From an uncultured Anaerolineae bacterium (GTDB taxonomy: Bacteria; Chloroflexota; Anaerolineae; Anaerolineales; Villigracilaceae), in assembly GCA_937120535.1 (NCBI GenBank), contig CAKZJX010000037.1, positions 1 to 47,269 on the forward strand: a stretch of DNA of 47,269 nucleotides, given 5' to 3'. Positions 4,014 through 47,269 of this stretch are shown here, piece after piece. Positions within the stretch are counted from its first letter, which is position 1; each line of letters starts with the position of its first letter. The notes under the pieces are model-generated. The model was not told the DNA's origin and did not search any database. It saw only the letters and a program-made list of their open reading frames with translations. The position numbers and the translations under genes were made by a program.

Positions 4014-4547
4014 TCAAATGGTAGGATGGTCTTGGATTCGCTGACGATAGTCGTTGTAATCTGGCAGGAGGCGTTCGTAGGGTTGATTCATCAGGGATGA
4101 GGAGATGTTGTAATCTGGCAGGAGGCGTTCGTAGGGTTGATTCATCAGGGATGAGGAGATCATGAAGTCGGCTGAAGCACGATTGCAGGCCACCGGGATG
4201 TTCCAGACCACCGCCATGCGCAATAGGGCTTTGACGTCGGGGTCGTGGGGTAGGGGTTGGAGCGGGTCCCAGAAAAAGATCAGGAAGTCGATTTCGTGAT
4301 CCACGATCTTGGCGCCGATCTGTTGATCGCCGCCCAACGGACCGCTTTGTAGTTTGGTGATGGAGAGGTTTAGTTCACGCTCGAGGAGCACGCCGGTGGT
4401 GCCAGTGGCATAGAGATCGTGCTGCGCCAGCAGATCACGGTTGAAGCGAGCCCACTCAAGGAGTTCGCGTTTTTTGTTGTCGTGCGCCACTAGGGCGATT
4501 TTCTTTTTCGAGTGCATCTGGATAGTTTGATAGGGAAGCGATTGCAT
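4014..4547 (-). CDS. mgsA: Methylglyoxal synthase with duplicated C-terminal segment
   Basis: This cytoplasmic enzyme converts dihydroxyacetone phosphate to methylglyoxal and phosphate, a bypass of lower glycolysis. The family core is clear: [10 protein letters not shown], the phosphate-binding [39 protein letters not shown] with the catalytic Asp and His, and WNIPVACN. The start is the ATG at 4547, preceded by AAAGGA; an upstream in-frame ATG would add an unlike N-terminus. The protein is 177 residues, longer than the usual 150 or so, because residues [18 protein letters not shown] occur twice in tandem. The repeat is encoded by an exact 54-bp direct repeat. It falls in the C-terminal helix/tail, so activity may survive, but this is untested. 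Confidence 0.92.
4053..4160 (+). repeat. Perfect 54-bp tandem duplication inside mgsA
   Basis: Bases 4053-4106 and 4107-4160 are identical. At 54 bases the unit is 18 codons, so the duplication keeps the mgsA frame. No difference between the copies means it is recent or an assembly artefact. Confidence 0.95.
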
Positions 4548-4639
4548 ATGGGAATCCTTTCTAGGGCGCAGAGAAGGCTTTGGATGTTCGAGAGGATGAA
4601 ACTGATGATCGTCGTTTTCATAACTGTATGCGCTACAGG

Positions 4640-4855
4640 TCAATCGGGAACGTTACAGCGTCCCTGCCGCCAACCAAACGTTAGCGCTCGCAGAGCCAGG
4701 CGACGACCAACCAGGCCGAGGGGACGATCGTGCTCGTCCACCACCACTTGATCGACTACGGCAAGCCGTTGATGGACGCCGGCCCGTTCGAGTAAATTCT
4801 CATCAACCGCCAAGAGGGGGCGATCGGGAAGCGGCCTGTCGCCAACGTCAGGCAA
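4640..4855 (-). pseudogene. CBS-domain-like fragment
   Basis: A 71-codon minus-strand frame starts with TTG and contains ERAGVHQRLAVVDQVVVDEH followed by DRPLGLVGRRLALRAL. This resembles the end of a CBS domain, where a hydrophobic strand, a DxxG turn and a following helix are typical. It overlaps the end of a crcB remnant on the same strand, and in many genomes crcB lies next to DUF190/CBS proteins. Only one incomplete motif is present and no ribosome binding site is visible, so I regard it as part of the same decayed locus. Confidence 0.4.
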
Positions 4856-5888: not shown

Positions 5889-6052
5889 GGCCTTGTTCAA
5901 AAAGTCTCTTTGGATGGTACGAACTGTCTCTGGAAGAGCCAAAAGAAGGCGGTTTGACCCTTGAATCGGCGGCTGATTCCATCGCTGATCCCCTTCCATG
6001 CCTGCTCTACCGGGCTCTCCTTTTGCGTCAAGGGTGCTTATTGAACAAGCCC
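5889..6052 (+). mobile_element. MITE-like element, copy 1 (164 bp)
   Basis: The ends are GGCCTTGTTCAAAAAG and GCTTATTGAACAAGCCC, a slightly decayed inverted repeat. The flanks TGTCGTAAA (5880-5888) and TATCGTACA (6053-6061) match at 7 of 9 positions, an eroded 9-bp target duplication. The 164 bases align without gaps to the reverse complement of 17414-17577 with about a dozen substitutions. No gene is inside. This is the older of two copies. Confidence 0.85.
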
Positions 6053-17095: not shown

Positions 17096-17293
17096 TTATT
17101 TGGACTTCTTTTCTTTCTTAATCTCGATGATCTCACGTCCCTGGTAATGACCGCAGTTCGGGCAAACCGCGTGCGGCAGGCGCATCGAGCCGCAGTTAGA
17201 ACAGAGCACGAGGTTTTTGACAGAAAGGGCATCGTGAGCGCGGCGACGATCGCGGCGACCCTTGGAGAGTTTTCGTTTTGGGTGTGGGGGCAT
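17096..17293 (-). CDS. rpmF: Ribosomal protein bL32
   Basis: A small basic large-subunit ribosomal protein. The start MPPHPKRKLSKGRRDRRRAH matches the family, and the ATG at 17293 has AAGGAG a few bases upstream; the longer in-frame start MSKKEKE is less likely. A zinc ribbon is formed by CSNCG and CPNCG, so this is the zinc-containing (C+) form. The C-terminus ends in a lysine-rich tail (IEIKKEKKSK). Many genomes place yceD upstream and plsX downstream; here the gene stands alone, with a transposon cluster upstream. Confidence 0.95.
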   Translation of the reverse strand: MPPHPKRKLSKGRRDRRRAHDALSVKNLVLCSNCGSMRLPHAVCPNCGHYQGREIIEIKKEKKSK

Positions 17294-17404
17294 CTCTTTC
17301 TCCTTCTTTGACAAACCATCGCCGGGATAGGGGGTGCCCGGTCATTTCCCGGCGTTGTGTTCAGATAGCGGGCGGGATTATATATGCAGAAATCAGTGAC
17401 GTCA

Positions 17405-17586
17405 AGTCCGAACGGCCTTGTTCAATAAGCACCCTTGACGCGAAAGGATAGCCCGGTAGAGCAGGCATGGAAGGGGATCAGCGATGGAATCAGTCGCCGA
17501 TTCAAGGGTCAAACGGCCTTCTTATGGCTCTTCTAGAGACAGTTCATACCGTCCAAAGAGGCTTATTGAACAAGGCCAGTCCGAAC
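17405..17586 (+). mobile_element. MITE-like element, copy 2, with perfect TIRs and target duplication
   Basis: The element is 17414-17577 (164 bp). Its ends GGCCTTGTTCAATAAGC and GCTTATTGAACAAGGCC are exact 17-bp inverted repeats. AGTCCGAAC occurs immediately outside both ends (17405-17413 and 17578-17586), a perfect 9-bp target duplication. It carries no gene. Directly beyond the right duplication begins an IS end, GGGCTTGTTCAATAA, sharing the core CTTGTTCAATAA. The same element occurs inverted at 5889-6052. Confidence 0.92.
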
Positions 17587-17860
17587 GGGCTTGTTCAATA
17601 AATCGTTCTCTGGGCAAGTTTTCCATGGTAGAAGAGCAGTCGGAGAAGGAGCGCAAAAAGAGTGAGGGAAATGCGCAGGTTGTAACACAGGGCTTCCAAA
17701 ATTGCCTTCTTCATAGCCATCTTGTCAATCCGTTCGCGGAACGGCCCATTTCGCCCAGTCTTCGTCCCCCAAAAGACCCCTTCGGCCACGGCCCGCAGGC
17801 GGTAGACCTGCCGGTCGAAGCGCTCTTGGGCCTGCCGTCGGCGGGGATGCCTTCAAGTTC
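17587..17860 (-). mobile_element. Truncated insertion sequence: transposase C-terminus and one end
   Basis: The minus strand reads RRRQAQERFDRQVYRLRAVA, EGVFWGTKTGRNGPFRERID, then MAMKKAILEALCYNLRISL and a hydrophobic tail ending AQRTIY. The frame looks like the C-terminal part of a DDE transposase; I cannot assign the IS family. The TGA stop lies inside the terminal repeat (TTATTGAACAAGCCC on the minus strand). Upstream the frame meets a stop near 17860 and no more transposase is seen, so the copy is 5'-truncated. Bases 17587-17662 recur at 47193-47268 with only two differences, showing that the element is dispersed. Confidence 0.8.
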
Positions 17861-18289
17861 CTACCGGATGGGCAAGGCCTAATGGCTCGACTCAGGAACC
17901 ATAGGCCATTGGGAACACGCGCTAGGAGGGGGATTTTTTCACACAGAGACACAAAGACACGGGGAGGCTCTGTGGTCTACGCGTTGTGTTCCCATACGAC
18001 TTGCGTTGCACGGCAGGGTGGAGGCAGGTCCCAAGCACAGGCCGACCCCGAAGGGAAGAACGCCGAGTGAGGCCAGGATCTCGCTCGCCTGGCGCGACGC
18101 TCGCGCTGTTTTTCGCGTGGTCCAGAAGCCTGGAAGGCAGCCTGGAAGATTTTTCTGTACTGCTTCCACTGCCGTCCATGGCGCAAGCAGCGTTTTCCGA
18201 ACTATCCCGCTCATGTGTTTCAGCTTACCAACCCATAATTTAGCCGCTCCCAGGAGAAGGACTGTGCAACCGTTAGAGATGACCTCAGG
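17861..18289 (+). other. Gene-free stretch left of the PfkB kinase gene
   Basis: About 430 bases carry no supportable gene. The part near 17935-17980 (ACACAGAGACACAAAGACAC) looks like simple dispersed repeat sequence. A 39-bp repeat shared with 34334-34372 lies at 18213-18251. The rest is unrecognised, possibly decayed insertion sequence. Confidence 0.6.
18213..18251 (+). repeat. 39-bp dispersed repeat, copy A
   Basis: Runs from ATGTGTTTCAG to AGCCGCTCCC and matches 34334-34372 with two C/T differences. No target duplication is seen here. Confidence 0.8.
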
Positions 18290-34311: not shown

Positions 34312-34382
34312 CCGCCGTCCTGAGAGTGGATAAATGTGTTTCAGTTTATCAACCCATAATTTAGCCGCTCCCCGCCGTCCTG
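34312..34382 (+). repeat. 39-bp dispersed repeat, copy B, flanked by an 11-bp direct repeat
   Basis: The repeat at 34334-34372 matches 18213-18251 with two differences. It lies between two copies of CCGCCGTCCTG (34312-34322 and 34372-34382), so the 49 bases between them look like an insertion with target duplication, or what remains after an element was lost. Confidence 0.7.
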
Positions 34383-47192: not shown

Positions 47193-47269
47193 GGGCTAGT
47201 TCAATAAATCGTTCTCTGGGCAAGTTTTCCATGGTAGAAGAGCAGTCGGAGAAGGAGCACAAAAAGAGT
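47193..47269 (-). mobile_element. End of an insertion sequence, cut by the window edge
   Basis: GGGCTAGTTCAATAA starts a stretch that matches 17587-17662 with two differences. It therefore encodes the same transposase C-terminus (ending AQRTIY) on the minus strand. One difference lies in the terminal repeat itself. Whether the rest of the IS is intact cannot be seen. Confidence 0.85.

Follow-up and report, generated by a model that had tools for sequence, protein, structure and literature searches.

A gene-less 164-bp repeat family with the ends of an ISTth7-like IS5-family insertion sequence in an Anaerolineae genome

In a 47,269-nucleotide stretch of DNA from an uncultured Anaerolineae bacterium (contig C37, analyzed at its full length and called the window here), a short element without genes and the end of an insertion sequence (IS) lie on either side of the same nine bases. 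This arrangement raises the question of what moves, or once moved, the short element. The original prediction named the transposase of the adjoining IS. Judging from sequence comparison, we consider it probable (roughly 85%) that the element is a miniature inverted-repeat transposable element (MITE), a non-autonomous DNA transposon whose terminal inverted repeats are those of an IS5-family IS akin to ISTth7, and that the transposase of this IS moves it, or once moved it, in trans.

The element, its family, and its landing site

The order of features in the window is GTCA-AGTCCGAAC-[164 bp]-AGTCCGAAC-GGGCTTGTTCAATAAATCG (Table 1). Exact 17-bp inverted ends close the 164-bp element (GGCCTTGTTCAATAAGC...GCTTATTGAACAAGGCC), the same nine bases, AGTCCGAAC, stand on either side of it, as had been predicted, and the right end of the IS begins with GGGCTTGTTCAATAAATCG directly after the second AGTCCGAAC. 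With up to one mismatch, CTTGTTCAATAA was found at seven sites in the window, against 0.12 expected. A second MITE copy is flanked by TGTCGTAAA and TATCGTACA, alike at seven of nine bases, and a second IS end is cut by the end of the contig. On the minus strand at ca. 17100-17295, a putative ribosomal protein L32-like reading frame was recognized by eye, its start facing the MITE at a distance of ca. 110 bp. Elsewhere in the window, a perfect 54-bp tandem duplication (family D2, 4053-4160) lies inside a minus-strand reading frame (4014-4643).

Table 1. Positions of the features discussed. Coordinates refer to the window unless a locus is named.
Feature	Position	Strand	Remark
GTCA half of the preferred landing site	17401-17404	+	Read from the sequence; consensus GTCA/A at family ends
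9-bp target duplication, copy 1 (AGTCCGAAC)	17405-17413	.	
MITE copy, 164 bp, exact 17-bp inverted ends	17414-17577	-	CTCTTTG-type end at 17577, ACCCTTG-type end at 17414
9-bp target duplication, copy 2	17578-17586	.	Common to the MITE and the neighboring IS end
Right-end remnant of an IS5-family insertion sequence	17587-17848	-	
Transposase C-terminus (82 codons, last residues AQRTIY)	17598-17843	-	47% identity over 58 aa to the ISTth7 transposase
Element B, partial copy behind the IS remnant	17929-18251	.	
Second MITE copy	5889-6052	+	Decayed duplication TGTCGTAAA/TATCGTACA
39-bp stretch like the GGGAGCGG end of element B (family D3)	34334-34372	.	
Second IS right end	47193-47269	-	Reaches the contig end
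Composites	L043:1482-1994, L042:1085-1597, L046:1026-1541		
290-bp deletion form of the composite	L036:2042-2331		

The claim of a genome-wide family was confirmed. In the assembly of this genome (3.11 Mb, 140 contigs), BLAST with positions 17405-17870 of the window gave at least 44 matches, the query itself and some partial matches included; this count may be a lower bound, since 40 of 92 first-look candidates were scored. The pattern CTTGTTCAATAA occurred at 80 exact and 40 one-mismatch sites, 120 together, compared with 8 for a reversed control pattern; 100 of these sites were listed, and the other 20 were looked at where they fell inside fetched stretches. From 58 fetched stretches we picked by hand 39 copies with both ends, of which 26 measured 164-165 bp and nine others 153-167 bp; the remaining four are composites, three of them 513-516 bp long and the fourth 290 bp. 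The 35 of these 39 copies that were aligned differ by ca. 13% on average. Short, gene-less, bounded by terminal inverted repeats, and present in many copies of one length, the family has the hallmarks of a MITE. Among 152 genomes of the same taxonomic family, it matched in its own genome only and in none of the 151 others, and an exact 26-base pattern of its end had no occurrence in either genome_contigs or viral_contigs, from which records of the own genome may have been left out. In the portions of the literature available for the terms MITE, Chloroflexi, insertion sequence, and IS5, no earlier description was found, and those for Chloroflexota held work on Microcystis only.

Flanking repeats of 9 bp, counted at zero offset only, were exact in 10 of the 39 two-ended copies and within two mismatches in 14, while 25 had none. 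When left and right flanks were re-paired (1,000 trials), such matches within two mismatches averaged 0.56 and never exceeded 4. The search for family ends yielded 135 candidates, of which 34 were left unclassified and 101 kept. For the landing site, four false internal ends and one duplicate were removed from the latter, and 12 ends at stack junctions (see below) were set aside from the resulting 96, leaving 84 primary ends. TCA occupies positions -12 to -10 in 31 of these 84, with no more than eight at any other offset (the eight being one base nearer), and all 31 continue as TCAA; G stands at -13 in 44 ends and A at -9 in 60. Taken from both ends, the preferred site is GTCA/A-N7-T/TGAC (slashes at the edges of the nine bases), a palindrome centered on the 9-bp stagger. 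Among the 14 copies with a duplication, TCA was present at one end in seven and at both ends in none. The consensus GTCAA-N7-TTGAC can help to distinguish genuine insertion edges from those that were rearranged.

The adjoining insertion sequence

The original description of the IS beside the MITE held, with its shared terminal bases and common 9-bp flank. One point is to be added: the IS is not intact, and only about the last 82 codons of its transposase are readable. On the reverse strand these codons end in ...LAQRTIY, their stop codon falls within the terminal repeat, and behind the remnant a different repeat, element B, takes over. An open N-terminal stretch of 141 codons lies behind the same type of end where contig C105 breaks off, and further IS pieces are found on C123, C18, C65, and C120. 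Neither a full-length, intact IS copy nor a complete transposase reading frame was found in the assembly, and nothing in this genome spoke against the original prediction through a full-length IS with ends unlike those of the MITE or an IS copy with a duplication of other than 9 bp. Contigs C37, C78, and C105 break off within an IS, which would be expected had full copies been collapsed or omitted in assembly. On C120, a 123-bp element (L026:1891-2013) consists solely of a right and a left end of the IS type, has similar, not identical flanks, and is possibly an internal-deletion form of the IS.

The N-terminal piece (141 aa) matched the NCBIfam IS5 transposase model NF033579 (E = 4e-8; 33 bits, cut-off 140) and, weakly and below cut-off, Pfam PF13737 (E = 0.002). 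Among plasmids it found 28 records, 27 from Thermus and one from Aquifex, corresponding to ISTth7-type DNA (40% identity) and to ISAae1 (31% over 89% of the query), and the Thermus place that it matched is 99.4% identical to an ISTth7 copy. Since the C-terminal piece in the window also aligns to the ISTth7 transposase (Table 1), the two pieces are opposite ends of one transposase type. Judged by transposase homology, the IS beside the MITE belongs to the IS5 family and is ISTth7-like. In 400 genomes of the phylum, the N-terminal piece matched nine, counting the own genome, at E up to 0.01; only G509 (1e-13) and G513 (1e-10) were clear matches, and the best matches in these two contain stops. 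In the 152 genomes of the taxonomic family, both IS pieces were found in the own genome only; a scan of genome_contigs with the N-terminal piece gave no confirmed match, and solved structures gave none at E up to 1.

The IS and the MITE have the terminal 15 bp in common together with a similar subterminal stretch at one end; homology between the two was seen at the ends, and none was noticed in the MITE interior. These shared ends, the 9-bp duplications, a landing preference that recurs beside ISTth7, and the homology of the IS pieces to ISTth7 are all directly visible in the DNA. They and the ISTth7 parallel support well the proposal that the transposase of the neighboring IS moves the MITE, and we infer both this mobilization and an intact source that existed or still exists. 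The transposase would bind ends of the form GG[G/C]CTTGTTCAATAA, pick targets near GTCAA-N7-TTGAC, and make a 9-bp staggered cut that would leave the 9-bp duplication.

A different transposase with similar ends might move the MITE instead and make the neighboring IS a bystander. Consistent with this, every IS copy found is either decayed or truncated at a contig end, the genome holds other IS transposases (eight matches to PF01609, of which the one on C64 also matches PF13612), and TCA occurs at two of the seven IS ends outside stacks (C18 and C105, as opposed to C27, C37:47193, C78, and both ends of C120). Against it stand the 15 terminal bases and the subterminal likeness, and the fact that a MITE-type element meets an IS end at two of the seven stacked junctions. 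The ends without a partner point the same way: after removal of the ends of two-ended copies and of the four false ones, 28 of the 101 classified ends were single, several of them with too little sequence behind for a reading-frame scan, and the longest reading frames behind ten of the 28 matched no transposase family in Pfam. Seven of the ten belong to host-gene families (amidase, UvrB, NusA, DUF4097, aminotransferase, acetyl-CoA synthetase, and solute-binding protein) and three had no match. We regard a foreign transposase as quite improbable. Far less credible still is the reading as no transposon but a short repeat with a structural role, of the REP/BOX or RNA-gene type; shortness, lack of genes, copy number, and inverted ends would all suit it, but we rejected it on the exact 9-bp duplications in 10 of 39 copies and on a landing consensus that lies outside the repeat, and a comparison of 17300-17950 with Rfam, at E up to 1, gave no match.

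Stacks, unmatched flanks, and composites

The junction in the window is one of seven at which two element ends lie exactly nine bases apart (C11, C26, C35, C37, C38, C54, and C65). All seven are head-to-tail, the one in the window being so counted because the left end of the IS resembles the CTCTTTG end, which makes its right end the counterpart of ACCCTTG. If orientation were random, seven of seven one way would have a probability of 1/128. The same 9-mer occurs three times in C11 and C65 (with one base differing once in C65) and twice in C26, C35, and the window; C54 has a different outer flank. The pair in the window probably arose when one element inserted head-to-tail against the other, into the same 9-bp site, and either could have come first.

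Slippage or unequal exchange of one element could also produce a stack of MITE, duplication, and IS, with no second insertion. It would give head-to-tail order, as in all seven stacks, and in C65 the partners are each other's nearest copies (97% identity, 99th percentile in a comparison that took in 35 of the 39 two-ended copies), so this stack may be a slippage duplication. The partners in C11 (88%, 38th percentile) and C26 (87%, 26th percentile) are, in contrast, no more alike than average, and the junctions of C35 and C37 set a MITE-type element against an IS end. Because the partners are unlike, these four stacks call for a further insertion into the same nine bases, which rules out slippage as the general cause, and we consider it unlikely for the MITE-IS stack. 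As to the constant orientation, head-to-head stacks of similar elements would be long palindromes, unstable and prone to assemble badly. The head-to-tail excess is possibly a survival bias, although MITE-IS stacks, in which the partners have only a short part in common, should be less affected. More tentatively, and with some doubt on our side, the transposase might re-target the junction of a resident element and place a second element in the same 9-bp duplication, always head-to-tail, so that stacks would grow directionally; the GTCA half-site together with the resident terminal repeat may then be a preferred second target.

In the 25 copies without a duplication, TCA was present at both ends in five, at one end in 11, and at neither in nine. 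A copy with an apparent landing edge on either side but different 9-mers points to the joining of two insertion sites. We searched for flank mates in a set of 107 ends (the 101 classified ends minus the four false ones, plus ten added by hand) and found four far pairs with exact mates, compared with a mean of 0.07 and a maximum of 1 in 200 column shuffles. One such pair on C54, CAGAGAGTT/AACTCTCTG, belongs to two inverted MITE copies 23.6 kb apart (L056:1036-1199 and L057:1039-1203) and fits a 23.6-kb inversion between them; as the two are only 90% identical (71st percentile), a recent replicative inversion is not favored. For the 25 copies as a whole, homologous recombination between copies, an adjacent deletion or inversion made by the transposase, and assembly mis-joins all fit, and many of these copies have the look of scars left by rearrangement or of joins made in assembly. 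For IS903, the available part of PMC11708052 describes adjacent deletions as common. The mean divergence of the aligned copies makes blind mis-assembly less likely.

Element B is a second MITE-like repeat family, ca. 339 bp long when complete, with ends GGGAGCGG/GGGAGTGG of the GGGAGYGG type. It touches 34 of the 49 matches of the repeat search, fragments included (loci including L095-L119), and an exact flanking repeat of 7-9 bp was seen in seven of 22 rows, each taken as the best of several lengths and offsets and some being false pairs. One copy lies inside a MITE end with an 8-bp repeat, TATTGAAC. In three places (C73, C118, and C127), element B inside one MITE terminal repeat forms the 513- to 516-bp composite. 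Exact 9-bp duplications accompany two of the four composite forms: the MITE-type AGTGTCAGT at the C127 composite, and AGGGGAAAA on both sides of the 290-bp deletion form on C35. The recurrence of the same MITE-B junction at several sites suggests that the composites moved as units, with one end reduced to its last 13-14 bases; element B might alternatively have inserted repeatedly into the same point of resident MITEs.

Relation to known insertion sequences and MITEs

The nearest well-preserved relative of the IS is ISTth7 (IS5 family, Thermus). Its transposase is homologous to both IS pieces and has its stop codon close to the terminal repeat, and its ends begin GGGCTTG; it differs in protein sequence (40-47% identity over the pieces) and in the terminal repeat, which diverges after the first 7 bases (GGGCTTGCCTTGCAA). 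As an outside test we took nine copies in Thermus plasmids, which represent seven distinct sites. An exact 9-bp duplication was found at six of the seven, and GTCA or TGAC stands in the right place at four; two ISTth7-type copies (L144 and L146) have no duplication, which gives exact 9 bp at six of nine sites overall. In the available part of PMC6352166, ISTth7 is tabulated with 8-bp repeats in subgroup ISH1, duplications are described as highly variable, and no landing consensus is given for it. Closer to home, the relative in G513 (L131) has a 10-bp flanking repeat with one mismatch and those in G509 have no clear ends; in a scan of six relative loci, no 16-bp inverted ends bordered by a 9-bp flank were found.

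IS903, also of the IS5 family, makes a 9-bp duplication. Its terminal repeat is identical to the IS right end at 15 of 18 positions, whereas the signs of an IS903-type transposase are weak, namely the PF13737 match above and 30% identity to IS903 over 53 aa (one comparison, E = 5e-5), and the only copy fetched (L147) has no duplication. ISAae1 (IS5 family, Aquifex), the more distant of the plasmid matches above, carries 9-bp AACCAAGGT on both sides, but its ends are RAGCCYGTTKAAAAAAT. Among bacterial MITEs, Nezha of cyanobacteria, with a duplication near 9 bp, is likewise gene-less and short with terminal repeats. The same description fits QMITE2 of Coxiella, with 7-9 bp repeats in the available part of PMC10969869; in both cases the likeness is one of description, not of aligned sequences.

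Set beside these systems, the elements described here are a new example of an ordinary IS5-family MITE-IS pair, and the link between the two is well supported. Through its terminal repeats and duplication length, with support from the landing consensus, an orphan MITE family is tied to a transposase group shared with Thermus. The general knowledge of MITEs is unchanged by this; the landing consensus, the somewhat unusual head-to-tail stacks, and the composites may interest specialists. The stacks and composites suggest that on one side the last 13-14 bases of an end can suffice, and in what way such elements accumulate next to one another.
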